From: Bacteroidota bacterium
Lineage (GTDB): Bacteria > Bacteroidota > Bacteroidia > Bacteroidales > F082
Length of the DNA: 64,000 nt
NCBI GenBank assembly: GCA_009773165.1
Contig: WOUZ01000005.1
Span: 1 to 64,000 of the forward strand
Direction: 5' to 3'
The notes under the pieces are model-generated. The model was not told the origin of the DNA. It did no database searches and worked only from the letters and a program-made list of their open reading frames with translations. A program made the position numbers and the translations under genes. Below, piece by piece: positions 38,409 to 51,794 of the stretch; the first letter of the stretch is position 1; each line of letters begins with the position of its first letter.

Positions 38409-39167
38409 TCAAACCCAACACAGATCAAAAGCATGAGCTTTTTCCCTGGCAATGCTTACTTCTTTTGTGAAGCTGTTGTTTTCGAGTAAGGCGATATGTT
38501 TTTTACGGTCGTAGCGGCGGACAAAACTAAGGTTGATCAGGCAGGAACGGGATGCACGAAAGAACTTGCCTTCAGGCAAAAGTCCTTCTGTATGTCCGAT
38601 GTTTTGGGTGATAAGTTCTTCGCGGCCTTCAGTTAGAATGACCCTGGCATAATTACCTTCAGCCATCACCGCCATCACCTCCCTGGGTTCGATAAGGATG
38701 AATCCTGTTCGAGTGTTTAGTCGCAACCGGTGGTCATGTAACAGTTGTTTTGCCAGCAATTCCAACTGTTGATCAAGCGCAGGAGGCGATTGTTGTTGCG
38801 ACCTTATACGCTCAAATACCTGCCTGAGCAGCTCCGGATCAACAGGTTTCAGCAAGTAGTCAAAAGCTGCAAGTCTCAATGCCTCTATAGCAAATGCATC
38901 GTAAGCGGTGACAAAGACGACGCTGCCTGTAAAAAGGCGGCGCTGCAGCTCTCTGGCAACTTCAATGCCACTCATAACCGGCATGTGTATGTCGAGAAGC
39001 ACCACATCGGGCTGAGTGGTACTAATTAGCTGCAGTCCGGCAAGTGCACTTGCAGCTGACCCAACCAATTTGACATCAGGTATCTCACGCAGTAACTGCT
39101 CTAGGACGAAGCGCGCTTCGGCTTCGTCATCAATTATAACGCAGGTAATTTGGGTTGTTTTTGTCAT
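38409..39167 (-). CDS. LytTR-family response regulator
   Basis: Receiver domain with IIDDEAEAR, phosphoacceptor D59 (VVLLDIHMP), VTAYDAFA and YLLKPV. The LytTR DNA-binding domain follows (RLNTRTGFILIEPREVMAVMAEGNY, then FFRASRSCLINLSFV). It follows the propeller-type kinase by 3 bp and is its partner. Its probable operator is the set of 21-bp phased repeats at 42537-42590, in the divergent region beyond the kinase gene. Confidence 0.92.
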   Translation of the reverse strand: MTKTTQITCVIIDDEAEARFVLEQLLREIPDVKLVGSAASALAGLQLISTTQPDVVLLDIHMPVMSGIEVARELQRRLFTGSVVFVTAYDAFAIEALRLAAFDYLLKPVDPELLRQVFERIRSQQQSPPALDQQLELLAKQLLHDHRLRLNTRTGFILIEPREVMAVMAEGNYARVILTEGREELITQNIGHTEGLLPEGKFFRASRSCLINLSFVRRYDRKKHIALLENNSFTKEVSIAREKAHAFDLCWV

Positions 39168-39170
39168 GGT

Positions 39171-42100
39171 TTATGATTGCTTTAAATGATGCCTGTAACT
39201 GAACCCATCTGGAATTATCAGATCCACATGTGTCCCGGTTGCATGGCCCTTATCGTCGATCAGGTCGGTTATTTGCCAGCTTATCTTCTTTTGGTTTTGT
39301 TCGTTGAAATGGTCGGTATAGCGCTGAAGGATGTTGAGCCCCATTCCCGTACCTGCTGTTTTAAGTTCCAATGCACGGGCACGACCTATTCCATCATCTT
39401 CGATGCATATTTTAAGACACTTTTGCTCCTTCAATAGGGTGATTTGAAGAAAACCAGGACTTGTTTTATGCATCAAACCATGCTTGAGGGCATTTTCTGC
39501 AAATGTCTGAATACACATACGGGGTACTTCCATTTGCATGTCAATAGTTGAGGGAATCTCAATGGAATAACTGAAGTGTTCTCTGAAACGAAAATGCTGA
39601 ATATCGAGGTAGTCGCGCACAAAACTGATTTCACTTTCGAGGCTGCGGGTAAGTTTATCGTTGTTTTGAAGAATGGAGCGCATCAGTTGCGAGAGCTTTA
39701 CAAAGTAAGTGTAGGCCACGTTCTTCTCCTCCTTCAACACGGCAGCAGCAATGGAGTTAATAGCATTATAGGTGAAATGCGGGTCGATCTGATTTTTGAT
39801 GCTGAGCAACTGAAACTCTGCAATTTTCCTTTCATTCTCCTGGAAAGCCAACTGTTTCTTCCTGCGTTCGTTTGTCAAACCAACGCCACCAAAAAATAAG
39901 ATGGCAGCAGCCAATAAAATTCCTGAAACCTTGAACCAAATGGTTTGGTAAAAGATTGGTTTGATGGTGAATTTATACACATGCTCCTTCGACCAAACAC
40001 CGTCGGTATTGGCTGCTTTATAAAAAAGCGAGTATTCACCCGGTTGAAGATTGGTATATACGGCATCACTTTCATGATCGGGAGATGACCATCCTTTATC
40101 ATAGCCCTCCAGAAAATGGCTGTAGGTAACCCCATCCGGATCGCGCAGACTTACGGCAGTAATGTCAAACCGGATGTTTTTCTCGTCTTTCGCATAATAA
40201 AAAACAGGATGGTACATTTGATCTCTTTCGAGTGGATTCCAATTCATTTTTTCATCCATCAGCGAAACAGTACCGATATAAACTTCTGGCGGAATGGTAT
40301 TTAAGTGAAGTTGGGCTGGATCGATGCGCACCACACGGTCGGAGTTGGTCAACCAGTAATAACCCTTAGTATCCCTGTAAAAACCGTTTTGTCCGGGCTC
40401 GATGGCATGATACCCTTTGTCGGGGCCTATTGACATAATACTTACTTCTCCCGTTTGATAAAAAGTTTTAACATTGAACATCAGTAAATCGCTGATGGTG
40501 CCAATGAGCATGGCGGAGTCGCCTACCATTGCCAACGAAAGCACAAGCTTGTCAAGTTTTGGATGTTCAATCTTAAGAAAAGATTCATAGTTATAAAAGA
40601 ACAATCCCTGCGGATTGCCAATCCAGATATTATCCAGACTATCGCGCAATAAGGCGTTGCCACCATGTGGAAAGGACATCTCAGCATAAGGCAGATGTCG
40701 AATTTCGTTGTTTTGAAGCAGGCTGATACCGTTAAAACCAGCAATCCAGATGCGACCTGAGCGATCTTTCACCACTGATGTGATGGACTTGCTTTTTCCA
40801 TTGCCCGGCTGCACATCCCAATGTTCCTGGACACCATTGAGTAGTCTGAACAAGCCTAAACTCGTTCCAACGTAGATAGAGGCGTCATTCGGGTCTTCAT
40901 ATACATAAAAAGCCGTATTAAACTTTTCAGATTTTATTGCCTGAAAAAACTTAGTTCCATCGTAACGTAAAAGGGTTCTGAATGTCACCGGAAGGTAAAC
41001 GTCTCCGGATTTTGCCCGCAGACTTCCCATATAAAATTGGTGCGGAATATTTAGATTGGTTTGGGATCTGTATCTTTCCATTGATTTGAATTGACCATCG
41101 TGATACATTTGCAATCCTTTATCGTAAGCACCAAAAAGCATATTGCCATGCTTATCTTCCGAAACTGACCAGATGTAGTCACTGATTCCTCCAGGCCGGG
41201 GGATAAAATTTAATATGGCCCTCGAAGTGTTTCGAAAAAGACCTTTTTCGGATCCTAACCAGAGGTTTCCCTCACGATCGACCAACATTTCTATGATGAT
41301 CCCATGATCAAACGTTTCTTTAAATACCCTTTCTTTTTCCAAAATCACTAATTTCTGATTTTTATTCTCGCGGTAAATAATGCGTCCATCCCGATCCACT
41401 GCAAAACTTTTATTCTCCAATAACGCTTGAGGGATACCTTCGGAAGGTATAAGATGAATTTCATCACCCGTGATTCTGCCAAATTGCGCATCGAAACACA
41501 CATATAGCTCACCGTCCACTCCCCTGGCGAAAGATTCAACTGCTTCAAATGCATCGGCTATCTTTTTCATTTTTCCAGCCCTGATTGCATGAATGCCCCA
41601 TTTGCCTGAGCCAGCATAAAGGGTGTTGGAAGGAAAGTCGTAAATTATAGTGATCAATTCGTTCGCAAATTTATCATTCGATAATGGATTTGGATCAAAA
41701 TAAGTCTCCATTAACAGGTAGGTCTTTCCGTCGAAATAATACCCCTCCAATTGATTATATTGATTGGTGAGATAAATGAAGATGCTGTCGCCCTGTTTCA
41801 CTACCGGGGGAAACAATGACATTCTGGACTTGAAGATTTCCGATGGAAAACCAGAAATTGCCGAACCATCATAAATAGCAAGGCCACCCCTTGTTAACAA
41901 CAAAATCCTTCCGGCAGAATCCTCACTAATATTATCAACAAATGACTCCGGCAAACCATCCTGAATCGTAAAATTTGTAAAATGTTTCCCATCAAAACGG
42001 CTTGCACCTAATTTGGTACCTACCCACAGATGTCCTTTGCTGTCCTGAAAAAGCGCAGTCACCTGCATCTGCAGCAAGCCTTCGCGGGTGGTAAAGTGGT

Positions 42101-42179
42101 CGTAATGCAGTTCTTGTGCTGTTCCTTTGAGCTGGAACAGAAGGATGATCAAAACTGCTATCAATCCGCTTTTATTCAT
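39171..42179 (-). CDS. Propeller-type LytS sensor histidine kinase
   Basis: About 1002 residues. A signal peptide (GTAQ) is followed by a periplasmic two-domain beta-propeller of Reg_prop repeats (LFQDSKGHLWVGTKLGASRFDG, DREGNLWLGSEKGLFR and others, residues about 25-630). A Y_Y_Y domain, one membrane helix (VSGILLAAAILFFGGVGL) and a PF06580 kinase core follow, with H801 in IDPHFTYNAIN (the usual PHFLFN is altered to PHFTYN). The HATPase has FAENALKHG and DDGIGRARA. Unlike the hybrid kinases of Sus loci, the regulator is a separate LytTR protein. It probably senses an extracellular ligand. Confidence 0.9.
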   Translation of the reverse strand: MNKSGLIAVLIILLFQLKGTAQELHYDHFTTREGLLQMQVTALFQDSKGHLWVGTKLGASRFDGKHFTNFTIQDGLPESFVDNISEDSAGRILLLTRGGLAIYDGSAISGFPSEIFKSRMSLFPPVVKQGDSIFIYLTNQYNQLEGYYFDGKTYLLMETYFDPNPLSNDKFANELITIIYDFPSNTLYAGSGKWGIHAIRAGKMKKIADAFEAVESFARGVDGELYVCFDAQFGRITGDEIHLIPSEGIPQALLENKSFAVDRDGRIIYRENKNQKLVILEKERVFKETFDHGIIIEMLVDREGNLWLGSEKGLFRNTSRAILNFIPRPGGISDYIWSVSEDKHGNMLFGAYDKGLQMYHDGQFKSMERYRSQTNLNIPHQFYMGSLRAKSGDVYLPVTFRTLLRYDGTKFFQAIKSEKFNTAFYVYEDPNDASIYVGTSLGLFRLLNGVQEHWDVQPGNGKSKSITSVVKDRSGRIWIAGFNGISLLQNNEIRHLPYAEMSFPHGGNALLRDSLDNIWIGNPQGLFFYNYESFLKIEHPKLDKLVLSLAMVGDSAMLIGTISDLLMFNVKTFYQTGEVSIMSIGPDKGYHAIEPGQNGFYRDTKGYYWLTNSDRVVRIDPAQLHLNTIPPEVYIGTVSLMDEKMNWNPLERDQMYHPVFYYAKDEKNIRFDITAVSLRDPDGVTYSHFLEGYDKGWSSPDHESDAVYTNLQPGEYSLFYKAANTDGVWSKEHVYKFTIKPIFYQTIWFKVSGILLAAAILFFGGVGLTNERRKKQLAFQENERKIAEFQLLSIKNQIDPHFTYNAINSIAAAVLKEEKNVAYTYFVKLSQLMRSILQNNDKLTRSLESEISFVRDYLDIQHFRFREHFSYSIEIPSTIDMQMEVPRMCIQTFAENALKHGLMHKTSPGFLQITLLKEQKCLKICIEDDGIGRARALELKTAGTGMGLNILQRYTDHFNEQNQKKISWQITDLIDDKGHATGTHVDLIIPDGFSYRHHLKQS

Positions 42180-42199: not shown

Positions 42200-42207
42200 C
42201 AAAGTTA
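42200..42207 (-). promoter_or_regulatory. Candidate promoter for the LytS/LytTR pair
   Basis: TAACTTTG on the minus strand matches TAnnTTTG, 20 bp before the kinase ATG. A TTG lies upstream with a short (15-nt) spacer. Confidence 0.4.
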
Positions 42208-42536: not shown

Positions 42537-42590
42537 ACCATTCGTCATGAAAAACAGACCATTCGTCCGTAAAAATAGCCTTTTCGTACA
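42537..42590. promoter_or_regulatory. Three 21-bp-phased direct repeats, candidate LytTR operator
   Basis: TTCGT occurs at 42541, 42562 and 42583, exactly 21 bp apart. The first two copies share ACCATTCGTC and an AAAAA stretch (17 of 21 bases). The third is weaker (CCTTTTCGTAC). LytTR proteins are known to bind pairs of short direct repeats spaced two helical turns apart. The site lies about 150 bp before the giant C10 protease gene, upstream of a near-consensus TATTTTTA (42640), and in the gap shared with the LytS/LytTR genes. Confidence 0.55.
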
Positions 42591-42736
42591 ATAAGTCTAA
42601 TTCCTAGTAGATTAGCTGAAATAATTCAAAAAACCTCTCTATTTTTAACAGAAATTAAGAAGGTATGATTGAATTCTTTTCAATTACCACCTGCCAACAA
42701 TCTATGTATGAATCAGATCACCCATAACCTCCCTGC

Positions 42737-45700
42737 ATGAAAAAATCAATCATCCTTACCAGCCTGTTTTTCATTTGCATGTTAGGATATTTATCAGCCG
42801 AAACGGTCAAAGAAGATAAAGCGCGGGTAGCAGCCGAAAACTGGTACCAGCATTATGCGCCTGAAAACAAGAAGTCAGCATTGGTGGGTAGTTTTTCAGA
42901 GTTCAAATACAATGGGCGAACAGCTTTCTATATCTACAATTTTGATCAGGGTGGTTTTGTGCTGGTGTCGGCCAATGATGCAGTGATGCCTGTATTGGGT
43001 TATGGTTTTGAGCATTCGGCACCTGAGGAAATTACGAATGAATCAGTAAAAGGATGGTTTGATAACTATGCTCGGCAGATTGATACGGTTTTTGTGCTGA
43101 AGCTAAAAAATGAGGAAATGACATCCAAGTGGATGGAGGTGCTTGAGAATAGGATCCCTGTAAAAAATGGCAACAGTGTGGGGCCGTTGCTGACAACTAC
43201 TTGGGATCAAGGATGGCCGTATAATGAAATGTGTCCTAGCGATGCAGGTGGACCTGGAGGTCATGTATGGATTGGCTGTGTAGCAACAGCTATGGCTCAG
43301 ATCTTGAAATATCATAACTATCCAAGCCAAGGTTTGGGAAGCTATGGTTACCAATGGGGATCTTATCCCTATACTGGTGCTGATTTTGGTGCGACGACTT
43401 ACAATTGGAGTAATATGCCCAATAGTATATCTACATCCAACCTGGATATAGCAACTATCATGTACCAAACAGCTGTATCTTGTAAATCTATGTGGGGAGC
43501 TGGAAGTACTGGCGTAGGATATTCTAGTGATAGTGATCCTATGACAAGGGCATTTGTGAATTATTTCAAAACTGCCTTTTCTACAATACACTATGTAGAG
43601 AGTCAATACTACACCACGACCGAGTGGAACAATCTTATCCAAGCAGAACTCACTAACAATCGCCCGGTTTATTATCGTGGTGATGGAGTAGGTAGTCATG
43701 CCTGGGTATGTGATGGAGTCGATGCTTCTAATATGTATCACTTCAACTGGGGTTGGGGAGGTATGTACAATGGTTACTTTGCTCTATCAAATATTAATCC
43801 AGGAGGCTTCAACTTTACAAGTAATCAACACGCCATCATAGGGATCAAACCCAACGATGGTAGTACATTGGTCACAAACACTACATGGTCAGGTAACGTA
43901 AGTAAATCAACGAATGTTGCTGTACCTGATGCTATCACTTTGACTACCAGTCCTGGAGCTGTAATAAACTTTGCACAAGATTGCAAATTACAGATATGGG
44001 GCAAACTTACTTCCATAGGCACATCTAGCAACTATGTCCGGTTTACAGCTGTAGATACGACTGATGGTTGGTTGGGTATCAAGTGGGATAATAGTCATAT
44101 GGATGGAACCGTAATGGCAGACAATGATACTTCCAAACTGATCTATACTCAGGTAGAGTATAGTGATGAGCATGGTATATTTTGCCAATACTATGGCAAA
44201 ATCCTGATAGATCACTGTAAGATCAACAATAATGATGCTTACAATGGTGCTGGAATTTCTGTATGGTATCAAGCTATCAATATTAACAATACAGAAATTT
44301 ACAACAATCATGCCACAAATAGAGGGGGGGGTATTTATTTATCTAGTGACGATAATCTGTCAGTTACTATCAGTCAAAATGACATCCATGACAATTTAGC
44401 AGATATTAGTGGAGGAGGTATTTATATGATTTGTTATGAAACTATTGTAATTAAAAATAATGATATTCATCATAACCAAGCAGTAAAAGGTGGTGGTGGT
44501 GTTGTTAGCGGTCTAACAGGACCAAAATTAATAAACAATAAATTCTGTAACAATTCTACTGTTGGTGATGGTAAGGGCGGTGGATTATATATTGAGAGCT
44601 GTTCACCCCATGTAGTAAACAATCTGTTTGCAAACAATACAAGAGGCGGACTCTATATCACTACCAACTCTAACCCTCTACTCCTAAACAATACCATATC
44701 CAACAATTCTCACCCCTATTATGGCGGAGGAATCAGGATAATGTATAATTCCAATCCTAGCTTAAAAAATACTATCTTGTATGGGAATACTGCTCCTGAT
44801 GGAAGTCAGATATCCTTGGAAACGACGGATTGTGACCCGCTCTTTGACCACTGTGATATACAAGGTGGTGTAGGTGGATTTGGTGGAGTGGGCGCAGGTA
44901 GCAATTATACTATCGCCAACTATACCAACAATTTAGAACTCAACCCTGTATATATCTCTCCATCTGGAGGTGCTGGTAATGGATATGATGGATTAAGTGC
45001 TAATTGGCAGTTACAATCCACTTCACCATGTATCAATGCCGGTGATACTACCGGAGTAGGCAATTTATTGCCTGTGCTGGATCTGGGAGATAATCCAAGG
45101 ATTAATGGTGAGATTGATATGGGGGTGTATGAGTATTGTGGACCTGGTCAGCCATCTGCTATAGCGGGTATCACTATTCTTTGTCAGGGAGCTGCCCAAG
45201 AATATTCAGTTACGAATGTTTCAGGAGTGACATACACATGGGCTGTTCCGCCCGGTGCTAGCATCACAAGTGGCCAAGGCAGCAATACCATCACGGTAGT
45301 TTTTGGCGCAGTAAGTGGGAATGTTTCAGTAGTTCCGAGCAATTTGTGTGGAGATGGCATGACTAGGGTACTTGGCGTAACTGTAAGTACACTACCTGCA
45401 CAGCCAAGCATTATCAGCGGGAATAGCAATCCTTGTGAGGGAGCTACTCAAAGCTATAGTATAACAGCAGTAACAGGTGAGAGTTACAACTGGACTGTTC
45501 CAAGCGATTGGAGTATTGTTAGCGGACAAGGTAGTAGTTTTATTGCTGTTGCAGTCGGTGCTAATCCCGGTAATATCACTGTAACACCCAGCAATAATTG
45601 CGGCGTTGGAAGTTCAAGAACACTGGCTGTGACGGTGAATCATGCGCCCAACCAAGCAAGTGAGATCAGCGGAAATATTGCTCCATGCCAAGGCGCAAAT

Positions 45701-46690
45701 GCAACATATTCGGTAACGAATGTTGTCGGTATAACCCATTCTTGGACCGTTCCAACAGGATGGACTATCGTTTCGGGACAAGGGAGCAGTTCAATTGCTG
45801 TTACAGTAGGATCAAACCCAGGTAATATCACTGTTACTCCTAACAATGCATGCGGAAGCGGAAGTTCCAGTACGCTCGCAGTGGTGGTGAACACAGTTCC
45901 CAATCAGCCAAGTGAGATTATTGGGAATGTCAATCCATGCGAAGGCTATACCGGAATTTATTCGGTAACGAATGTAGTGGGTGTAAGTTATAATTGGACA
46001 ATTCCTACTGGAGCAGTTTTCATTGATGGACAGGGTACCAATTCTGTGGTTGTAAATATGGGTGCAACAGGAGGTAATATACTAGTTACGCCATCCAATA
46101 CATGTGGAAACGGATTAGCGAGAAGTTTGGCTGTGGTAGTGAATAATCCGCCATCGGAAACCCCATCTCAAGCTCTTGGGCCAGAGACAGTGAATACTTA
46201 TACCACAATAAGTAGTCTTTATACAACAAACGCTGTTGCAGATGCAAATTACTATTTATGGGATTTGTTTCCAACATATGCAGGAGTTTTATCAACAGGA
46301 AATGATACATCTGTTACTATAACATGGAATACTAGTTTTATAGGAAATTGTGCTTTAATGGTGAAAGCCGTTAATAACTGTGGAGAAAGTCAGTATTCTA
46401 TTCCGAAAATTATTTATGTTGATTATATTACTTCATTAGATGAGGTAAAACACAATCCTATAACAATATTCCCAAATCCATCGGATGGTATCTTTACGGT
46501 GAAGTCTGAATACCCAATGGAAAGCATGGTGCTGAAGGATGTAACTGGAAAAGTGGTACTGCACCCAATTCCGGATAACGGTTATTCATTCAACATCAAC
46601 TTACAAGGTTTTGCTAAAGGGATCTATTTCCTTGACATAAAACATCGTTATGGAAAAGAACGGGTGAAGCTGATACTGATTGAGAACTAG
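42737..46690 (+). CDS. Giant secreted protease: Spi + C10 peptidase + beta-helix + PKD-like repeats + T9SS
   Basis: 1317 residues. A signal peptide comes first, then a Spi/propeptide region (about 22-135: ARVAAENWYQHY, GGFVLVSANDAVMPVLGY). A C10 streptopain-like peptidase follows with C181 (WIGCVATAMAQI) and H321 (GSHAWVCDG), then YHFNWGWGG. A right-handed beta-helix is at about 460-790 (repeated NNDAYNGAGI, NATNRGGGIYLSS-like turns). Four ~83-residue Ig/PKD-like repeats (about 812-1145) each start C(Q/E)G and contain SGQGS and GN(I/V). A T9SS type A sorting domain closes it (ITIFPNPSDGIFTV). It is a surface cysteine protease with adhesive modules. Confidence 0.9.
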   Translation: MKKSIILTSLFFICMLGYLSAETVKEDKARVAAENWYQHYAPENKKSALVGSFSEFKYNGRTAFYIYNFDQGGFVLVSANDAVMPVLGYGFEHSAPEEITNESVKGWFDNYARQIDTVFVLKLKNEEMTSKWMEVLENRIPVKNGNSVGPLLTTTWDQGWPYNEMCPSDAGGPGGHVWIGCVATAMAQILKYHNYPSQGLGSYGYQWGSYPYTGADFGATTYNWSNMPNSISTSNLDIATIMYQTAVSCKSMWGAGSTGVGYSSDSDPMTRAFVNYFKTAFSTIHYVESQYYTTTEWNNLIQAELTNNRPVYYRGDGVGSHAWVCDGVDASNMYHFNWGWGGMYNGYFALSNINPGGFNFTSNQHAIIGIKPNDGSTLVTNTTWSGNVSKSTNVAVPDAITLTTSPGAVINFAQDCKLQIWGKLTSIGTSSNYVRFTAVDTTDGWLGIKWDNSHMDGTVMADNDTSKLIYTQVEYSDEHGIFCQYYGKILIDHCKINNNDAYNGAGISVWYQAININNTEIYNNHATNRGGGIYLSSDDNLSVTISQNDIHDNLADISGGGIYMICYETIVIKNNDIHHNQAVKGGGGVVSGLTGPKLINNKFCNNSTVGDGKGGGLYIESCSPHVVNNLFANNTRGGLYITTNSNPLLLNNTISNNSHPYYGGGIRIMYNSNPSLKNTILYGNTAPDGSQISLETTDCDPLFDHCDIQGGVGGFGGVGAGSNYTIANYTNNLELNPVYISPSGGAGNGYDGLSANWQLQSTSPCINAGDTTGVGNLLPVLDLGDNPRINGEIDMGVYEYCGPGQPSAIAGITILCQGAAQEYSVTNVSGVTYTWAVPPGASITSGQGSNTITVVFGAVSGNVSVVPSNLCGDGMTRVLGVTVSTLPAQPSIISGNSNPCEGATQSYSITAVTGESYNWTVPSDWSIVSGQGSSFIAVAVGANPGNITVTPSNNCGVGSSRTLAVTVNHAPNQASEISGNIAPCQGANATYSVTNVVGITHSWTVPTGWTIVSGQGSSSIAVTVGSNPGNITVTPNNACGSGSSSTLAVVVNTVPNQPSEIIGNVNPCEGYTGIYSVTNVVGVSYNWTIPTGAVFIDGQGTNSVVVNMGATGGNILVTPSNTCGNGLARSLAVVVNNPPSETPSQALGPETVNTYTTISSLYTTNAVADANYYLWDLFPTYAGVLSTGNDTSVTITWNTSFIGNCALMVKAVNNCGESQYSIPKIIYVDYITSLDEVKHNPITIFPNPSDGIFTVKSEYPMESMVLKDVTGKVVLHPIPDNGYSFNINLQGFAKGIYFLDIKHRYGKERVKLILIEN

Positions 46691-50336: not shown

Positions 50337-51794
50337 TCAACGAATGAATTTGCATACACTGCTCGACCCATTCTCCATTTTCAACTCAGCGATGAAAAGA
50401 CCTCGCGGCAGGTGGTTCATTGGCACTGCCGAAGTCTGGATTCCTGAAGATGTGTTTAGATGTAACTGCATCTCCATTTGGCCTGTGCTGTTGAAAACTG
50501 ACAAAATTCCTGACGCTGTATTTTCAGGAAACGTGAGATAAAGCATGGAGGTTTGACTTGTGTAATACATCTCCGGCTTTGACGAAAGCTCAGGTTTTTC
50601 GGCTGTTCCAATCGTCGAATTGCTCAGGTTGATATCCAGAACAATTCCTTCAATCACTGTGAGTTCATAGGGAATATTCTCGGGCGGCATCGAGTACCAG
50701 CCATTGGCCGAGCCACCCCATCCAAAGTTGAAGTGATACAATTCATCGGTGTTGTAACCATCCACCACCACGTTATGTCCTGCTGTCTGTGAAGGATTCA
50801 CGATTCCAAGCTGGGCAGGAAGGGCAATCTTAATATTCTCAGTCAGCATCGCATTCAGTTCCGGATTGGTGGGGTAAACCAGCTGTGCATCCGAATAACC
50901 GAATCTGATAAACGCATCATAAGCCTGGTCGATTCCAAAAGTACCTGAGACTGAAGAGCTGTACACCTGTTTTGCAGCTGCACCACATGCATAGGTAAGC
51001 GCTGCCTTGTCGCTGTTTTTGAGCGGAACACCCTGCTCGTAATGCGTTTCCAGGGTGTCAAGATACAAATTGAGCTGTTCCCACGAAGGAAATCCGCGGT
51101 TCTCCCAATCATTGTCAATCCAATAACTGTTACCTGAACCAAAATTATGGTAGTAGTCATCGGTATCCGAGAACCGGGTTTTGTTGGTCCTCTGATGAAA
51201 ATTCACAATCTGAGCCATGGCAGTGGCAGGACAACCAGCAACACTCCGTGTCTGAGTTTGTCCGTCTATCGGACAAAATGCATTGTAGGGAGCAGTCTGT
51301 GTCCAATTGGTTGACAACCAACCTCCTGTTGGAGACCATCCTTCGGGAGGCCATTGTTCAAATAAACGCTTTTCGGTTGTCGTATTCATCCAATAGTTCC
51401 AGGTACCATGGTTTCTGGCAGCTTCATCATCCTCCTGACTTACATACTGCTTTCGAAGTTTGAGATCCTTAATCAATAAAGGAAGGAAACTTGACCACGC
51501 CTCACCTTCACCAAAGTTGGATTCATCCGACCAGGCGACGAAGGGTGGTAGGTTTGTATTAGTTGAAACGATGACAAATCCACGGGGCTCACAATGGATC
51601 AGCCAGACCAGACTATCGTTGCCCACCGTCAAAGCCTCTGCAAACATGGAACGTTGATTTGGATGCCTGATTTGAAGGTAATTGTTTGCTACCCTAAGCG
51701 CATCGTCTCTGCTTATGGATTGGGCGGTGGATCTCTCAGCTGCTGCTAACAGGAAGAAAGACAGCAGGATCAGAATGCCTGATATCTGTTTCAT
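50337..51794 (-). CDS. Secreted C10 (streptopain-like) cysteine protease with Spi and T9SS domains
   Basis: 485 residues. A signal peptide ending STAQ is followed by a Spi/propeptide region (SRDDALRVANNYLQ, RGFVIVSTNTNLPPFVAW). The C10 peptidase has catalytic C188 (SVAGCPATAMAQ) and H340 (AGHNVVVDGYN), with YHFNFGWGG. The C-terminal sorting domain is short (GILSVFNSTGQMEMQLHL, LPRGLFIAELKMENG). It is exported by type IX secretion and activated by propeptide removal. It is a smaller paralogue of the giant protease at 42737, without the beta-helix and PKD repeats. Confidence 0.9.
   Translation of the reverse strand: MKQISGILILLSFFLLAAAERSTAQSISRDDALRVANNYLQIRHPNQRSMFAEALTVGNDSLVWLIHCEPRGFVIVSTNTNLPPFVAWSDESNFGEGEAWSSFLPLLIKDLKLRKQYVSQEDDEAARNHGTWNYWMNTTTEKRLFEQWPPEGWSPTGGWLSTNWTQTAPYNAFCPIDGQTQTRSVAGCPATAMAQIVNFHQRTNKTRFSDTDDYYHNFGSGNSYWIDNDWENRGFPSWEQLNLYLDTLETHYEQGVPLKNSDKAALTYACGAAAKQVYSSSVSGTFGIDQAYDAFIRFGYSDAQLVYPTNPELNAMLTENIKIALPAQLGIVNPSQTAGHNVVVDGYNTDELYHFNFGWGGSANGWYSMPPENIPYELTVIEGIVLDINLSNSTIGTAEKPELSSKPEMYYTSQTSMLYLTFPENTASGILSVFNSTGQMEMQLHLNTSSGIQTSAVPMNHLPRGLFIAELKMENGSSSVCKFIR

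Follow-up and report, generated by a model that had tools for sequence, protein, structure and literature searches.

Gene organisation and repeat units upstream of the protease gene

The window, namely the whole stretch of 64,000 nucleotides analysed from a Bacteroidota bacterium of the family F082, contains a gap that separates a LytS/LytTR gene pair from a divergently arranged giant C10 protease gene (Table 1). This layout, which was described in the initial annotation, agreed with the domain matches. The regulator was matched above the cut-off by PF00072 (81.5 bits) and PF04397 (45.4 bits), and the peptidase by Peptidase_C10 (173.1 bits) and the I69 propeptide (56.5 bits). A second peptidase-like gene, encoding 485 aa on the minus strand (50337-51794), is located 3.6 kb beyond the C10 protease and is 29% identical to it over query residues 5-353.

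Three repeat units with a period of exactly 21 bp, all on the plus strand, were found in the gap. They are oriented towards the protease gene, whose start codon follows 148 bp after the last unit. The TTCGT core was present at 42541, 42562 and 42583, and direct comparison of the first two full units (42537-42557 and 42558-42578) gave 17 shared bases out of 21, both as initially annotated; the first ten bases are identical (ACCATTCGTC). Unit 3 proper (42579-42588, CCTTTTCGTA) is degenerate and matches ACCATTCGTC at 6/10 positions. The LytTR half-site consensus was reportedly given in a 2002 paper as [TA][AC][CA]GTTN[AG][TG], and the half-site ACCATTCGT fits this consensus at 8/9 positions. A terminator-like match on the minus strand (42554-42570, 6 pairs; 1 found against 0.4 expected) overlaps unit 2 and was set aside.

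At a tolerance of 3 mismatches, the 20-base pattern of the pair occurred once in the window against 0.01 expected from shuffles. When the gap was scanned de novo for repeats spaced 14-35 bp apart, the ACCATTCGTC pair at 21 bp was the sole 10/10 repeat with at least 3 G/C. The related pattern CCATTCGTC-N12-CCATTCGTC (up to 3 mismatches) was found five times in the 4.38 Mb genome against two for the reversed control. Units 1-2 and units 2-3 supplied two of these five matches, the sole exact match was the present site, and no second exact pair was detected elsewhere in the 4.38 Mb source genome.

Table 1 Coordinates of genes, repeat units and promoter-like elements around the divergent gap
Feature	Position	Strand	Remarks
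LytTR response regulator, likely binder	38409..39167	-	Response_reg and LytTR domains; motif FFRASRS
LytS-type sensor kinase with Reg_prop propeller and Y_Y_Y domain	39171..42179	-	Domain matches
Separate lytS promoter-like -7, TAACTTTG	42200..42207	-	Conserved in G035
Putative operator unit 1, ACCATTCGTC	42537..42546	+	Identical in G167, same place; 1 mismatch and 1-bp shift in G041; degraded in G035 (5/10)
Putative operator unit 2, ACCATTCGTC	42558..42567	+	9/10 in G035; GCAATTCGTT in G167; unclear in G041
Putative operator unit 3 (CCTTTTCGTA) into TACAATAAGT	42579..42596	+	42583-42598 15/16 identical in G035; TCRTACAWTAA in 4/4 promoters compared
Promoter-like TGAA-19 bp-TATTTTTA (-33/-7)	42617..42647	+	TGAG-19-TAATTTTA in G035; TTTTAAC spacing kept in four promoters
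C10 peptidase, 1317 aa, probable target	42737..46690	+	I69 propeptide, beta-helix and PKD-like domains, type IX sorting tail

Conservation of the repeat units in related genomes

Among 173 family genomes, the exact pair was found in the source only, and a pair with up to 2 mismatches was found in 7 (source included); none of the latter quality was detected in other genomes of the genus (8 searched). In a phylum sample of 395 genomes, the pair with up to 1 mismatch was present in 4 genomes (source included), with 4 places outside the source genome against 2 for the reversed control; it was exact in G429 and G295.

Orthologs of LytS at E <=1e-100 were present in 9 of the 173 family genomes, including the source. 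The same divergent gene order was found in G035, with both gene sets together. The G035 gap showed 46% identity over 557 window bases, and its best 42-bp stretches were the lytS promoter (32/42), units 2-3 with TACAATAAGTCT (31/42) and the TTTTAAC region (30/42). The initial annotation had tied its reading to the presence of the phased repeats in close relatives that keep both gene sets. G035 was the one such relative seen, and the expectation held in part: units 2 and 3 are kept (5 mismatches over 20 bases in all), but unit 1 is lost, and the exact pair was not detected in the other genomes of the genus.

The lytS gene of G041 runs into a contig edge, and a search for its missing N-terminus gave weak matches only (best 36%), in line with the contig edge. 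The only close protease match in this genome was a remnant (L116, open frame to 5308; 138-aa open frame, 70% over residues 1-108), which sits on another contig than lytS-lytTR. The DNA upstream of the remnant still contains ACCATTCTTC, shifted by one base, and TTCATACAATAA. Because these upstream blocks are kept by a remnant that is off the lytS contig, the footprint stays with the protease promoter.

A further site was found in G167, which belongs to another genus and encodes an orthologous LytTR regulator (52% identical, same FFRASRS motif). The gap between lytTR and the next same-strand gene in G167 reads ACCATTCGTC-N11-GCAATTCGTT-N11-ACCCCTCATA, and this next gene encodes a 720-aa secreted-type protein that was matched by FG-GAP, CHU_C and a type IX tail; a cohesin match of the same protein was below the cut-off and was dropped. 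The G167 pair was the only one with up to 5 mismatches across six ortholog loci (66.6 kb), and resampling of this single gap 20000 times yielded a pair as good once, 12 gaps having been examined.

When the promoters of the source, G035, G041 and G167 were set ungapped on TACAWTAA, the units were located at -50, -29 and -8, with the exceptions of the degraded unit 1 in G035 and, in G041, a unit 1 shifted by one and an unclear unit 2. TTTTAAC stands at +56 or +57 from this anchor in all four promoters. No such site was detected in the scanned gaps of the further LytS orthologs G016, G166, G170, G039 and G040. G170 encodes a LytTR protein of 51% identity that also has the FFRASRS motif, yet the site was absent from the gaps scanned there; G016 and G166 showed no full LytTR frame adjacent to lytS, and the G039 contig ends just after lytTR. 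A wider regulon scan for unit 3 plus TTTTAAC (gap 49, up to 2 mismatches) matched 112 of the 173 family genomes. In the source genome, the scan matched 3 places and the reversed control 4; the present site (gap 48) was not among the 3. Among the matches listed, zero-mismatch rows at gap 49 came from G035 and G041 only. A wider regulon is not proposed.

LytTR paralogs and the likely binder

The source genome contains eight LytTR genes, and the units could constitute a LytTR operator that is bound by one of the other proteins, with the neighbouring regulator acting elsewhere. The motif FhRhHRS reads FFRASRS in the neighbouring regulator (H to S), as it does in G035, G167 and G170. In the available text of PMC4227749, the histidine of this motif is implicated in AgrA binding. 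In the present analysis, the HRS motif is found in 2/7 paralogs and in 9/11 site-linked LytTR domains, and is absent from the neighbour. Similarity among the domains is uninformative in this respect. The domain of the neighbour has 16-26% identity to the site-linked LytTR domains of other genomes and 15-25% to its paralogs in the source genome, so domain likeness cannot name the binder, whereas location and orthology do. In a search of solved structures with the whole regulator, the best 60 of 274 matched essentially by the receiver part, and the same search with the domain alignment gave 5 sequences, AgrA and ComE among them.

The distribution of the site argues against another binder. No ACCATTCGTC pair with up to 5 mismatches at 21 bp was found in the other seven LytTR loci (7-12 kb each), and 6-mismatch pairs at 21 bp were found in four of the seven. 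One of these loci has its own different repeat, located on the minus strand before the operon (L081:2786-2836, G000:C25), which reads GCCACTTAT-N12-GCCACTTAT and is followed by a degenerate third unit a further 21 bp away, the latter pair having 3 mismatches. The GCCACTTAT pair there and the ACCATTCGTC pair here thus indicate that different LytTR loci carry different half-sites on the same 21-bp frame. Moreover, the site is again beside the orthologous pair in G035 and G167. Binding by another LytTR protein of the genome is considered improbable.

Promoter-like elements and the target of the units

The near-consensus -7 reported at 42640 was found as TATTTTTA, with TGAA 19 bp upstream, but such -7 matches are not unusual when taken alone: 5/6 matches to TAnnTTTG occurred four times on the plus strand of the 610 bp scanned. 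A sigma-70 scan gave no match. The candidate promoter TGAA-19-TATTTTTA lies downstream of the units at a distance that is conserved in the relatives, which would place the units upstream of a promoter, as in LytTR operators. A putative start site near 42654 would put the unit centres near -70, -91 and -112. The distance from the lytS TAACTTTG to unit 1 is approximately 330 bp. Control of lytS from the units is unlikely because lytS has this -7 of its own, also in G035, at such a distance, and the initial suggestion that the sensor perhaps controls itself was not upheld. The likely target of the units is the protease gene.

The same operator could instead be a repressor site for the protease gene, comparable to the three repeats of CoxC, or serve both divergent genes. 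The position of the site in a divergent gap accords with such a role, as does the CoxC repressor site, which is described in the available part of PMC11347149 as three repeats at 18-21 bp. However, the CoxC repeats overlap the -35 box in that description, whereas 28 bp separate unit 3 from the putative -33 here. In addition, the conserved -7 of lytS is far from the units, and the G167 site is located downstream of lytTR and not at lytS. Repression or dual control is thought unlikely.

Linkage of the exact pair to LytTR genes across bacteria

The exact 20-base pair was sought in a genome contig collection, and 27 stretches were obtained. On visual inspection, eleven were classed as 21-bp arrays, microsatellites or dispersed repeats and excluded (L018, L020, L022, L025, L026, L027, L029, L032, L036, L040 and L042), and no LytTR gene was found in these within the stretch around the site. 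A LytTR gene was present within 9 kb of the exact pair in 11 of the 16 kept genomes against 0.67 expected (P ~8e-13, uniform placement). Within 3 kb, the count was 5/16 against 0.23 expected (P ~2e-6, uniform placement). When the Flavobacteriaceae operon common to 5 of the 16 genomes was counted once, the 9-kb result was 8/12 against 0.45 expected. LytTR genes were counted in all 16 genomes and sites were located in 14 of them. The sites of G574 and G577 are on contigs shorter than 6 kb and were scored as misses, nearness in L019 and L023 was judged within the stretch around the site only, and distances for the 11/16 count were worked by hand.

An internal control was based on the presence of a LytTR gene within 9 kb. 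This was the case for 11/14 exact pairs, 0/3 pairs with 1 mismatch, 1/10 with 2 mismatches and 2/45 with 3 mismatches, the last two classes together giving 3/55. The control used 72 of 79 rows, leaving out six rows of G507 (whose LytTR genes were uncounted) and one G579 row beside an exact site; distances were taken start to start and ranged from 112 to 8546 bp. Linkage in these other genomes means proximity only, up to 8.5 kb. The linked genomes belong to Bacteroidota and Firmicutes, including Lachnospiraceae, Clostridia and Selenomonadaceae records. This linkage, together with the published site format, makes the predicted reading of the repeats as a LytTR operator well supported.

It is very improbable that the units bind an unrelated factor and that the LytTR genes are nearby by coincidence: a literature co-occurrence of ATTCGTC and LytTR was unrelated by title, but the linkage holds in two phyla and the units have a two-turn spacing. 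A functionless 21-bp tandem duplication made by chance or slippage, as might be suspected from the set-aside stretches with the same decamer pair in unrelated genomes, the loss of unit 1 in G035 and the weak excess in the phylum sample, has a negligible probability in view of the shuffles and the near-fixed distances in four promoters.

Several of the linked sites have features of their own. In Flavobacteriaceae (L033, L034, L038, L041, L044 and L115), the pair, exact except for one mismatch in L115, is located upstream of a conserved operon; in L041 this contains, in addition to a receiver gene, genes for H-NOX (HNOB), PAS kinase and FIST proteins and for a second kinase. A LytTR gene follows at a distance of 6-8.5 kb downstream in four of these genomes (L034, L038, L041 and L044). 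When up to 3 mismatches were allowed, ACCATTCGT-type pairs numbered 8 in G571 (Lachnospiraceae; L098, L107, L108, L109, L110 and L111) against 5 for the reversed control, and several of them have the same inner bases. Ten downstream genes were scanned, and four of them encode WXG100 proteins, of which three are from G571 and one is from G573 (Clostridia, L100). This points to a regulon of type VII secretion genes under LytTR control; a literature search for LytTR with WXG100 returned no paper related by title. At L103:7391-7460 (Selenomonadaceae), two ACCATTCGT pairs are arranged back to back, one per strand; one of them is exact, the other has 2 mismatches, and together they are possibly a divergent LytTR operator.

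Relationship to known LytTR operators

The published format of LytTR sites, according to the available text of PMC6193735, consists of two direct repeats of 9 bp each, separated by 11-13 bp and located upstream of a promoter. Many of the half-sites given there begin with ACC, e.g. ACCACTTAC-12 bp-ACCACTTAC, and a Treponema row of the table reads ACCACTTAT-11 bp-GCCACTTAT. The present site has a pair of direct repeats whose units are 10/10 identical (LytTR operators have a pair of ~9-bp units), with 12 bp between the 9-bp units (10-13 bp in such operators) and a period of 21, and ACCATTCGT has ACCA in common with the ACCACTTAC-type sites of PMC6193735.

In the HdrR and BrsR LytTR regulatory systems (PMC6193735, available text), two-turn direct repeats are likewise located upstream of the promoter. 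The present candidate differs in its half-site ACCATTCGT and its third degenerate unit; its predicted regulator is the response regulator of a two-component system that has a propeller kinase, and its predicted target is a divergent secreted protease, whereas HdrR and BrsR act on their own operon. The AgrA sites of S. aureus P2/P3 are also direct repeats upstream of promoters with suboptimal elements. In the part of PMC4227749 that was available, the promoter-proximal AgrA repeats are near -60, i.e. approximately one helical turn nearer than the putative -70 here; AgrA belongs to another phylum and has the motif FFRCHNS instead of FFRASRS. The CoxC and RcoM operators resemble the present site in having three direct repeats (18-21 bp for CoxC) bound by LytTR domains. 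They differ in the repeat (TTNNNGCN or TTCNNGCA) and in that CoxC and RcoM are one-component gas sensors, of which CoxC represses (PMC11347149, available part).

A further known case is within the Bacteroidia. Bacteroides LRS-like repeats (PMC6193735, Table 3, as available) are two-turn direct repeats with a TATCTTTG promoter element and a 19-bp spacing. They differ from the present units in being 11-bp units (TCCGGTATTCA/ACCGGAAATCA) with an 11-bp spacer, associated with membrane LytTR proteins and presumed autoregulation. This pair, of another sequence, was the sole description of LytTR repeats in Bacteroidota that was found. A literature search for LytTR sites in Bacteroidetes/Bacteroidota, which covered mainly literature outside subscription, found no other paper, and the occurrences of the literal ACCATTCGTC decamer in the literature were all unrelated by title. 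It is well supported, as judged from sequence, that the site represents a LytTR operator of a known kind; this exact sequence of the site is found again beside the same regulator family in distant bacteria.

Proposed mechanism and implications

The three 21-bp-phased units are probably the operator of the neighbouring LytTR regulator, through which the C10 protease gene would be activated. In the proposed mechanism, the propeller-type LytS kinase would sense its signal and phosphorylate the LytTR regulator. The LytTR domains of the regulator would then bind the units on one helix face, approximately 70, 91 and 112 bp upstream of the putative start site, and the bound regulator may assist RNA polymerase at the promoter TGAA-19-TATTTTTA, whose -33 element is poor. 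As a result, the C10 protease gene (42737 onwards) would be switched on, and activation rather than repression is what we infer. The initial prediction that the LytTR regulator of the propeller sensor acts on the C10 protease gains support from the conservation in G035 and G041 and from the G167 ortholog.

A broader reading is evenly balanced between being right and wrong. ACCATTCGTC-N11-ACCATTCGTC may represent a widely used class of LytTR operator, common letter for letter to domains that are only 16-26% identical, in Bacteroidota and Firmicutes, and controlling surface or secreted effectors and sensing operons. Its targets would include the type IX protease and the FG-GAP protein here, the H-NOX operon in Flavobacteriaceae and the WXG100 type VII genes in Clostridia. 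If this is true, LytTR recognition would be determined by a few residues that are re-used across phyla.

For the present organism and its relatives, our analysis provides a concrete candidate site, seen in two genera, with a likely regulator, a putative promoter and a probable secreted target. The recurrence of this decamer pair near LytTR genes of other phyla may serve as a handle for predicting the targets of LytTR regulators.
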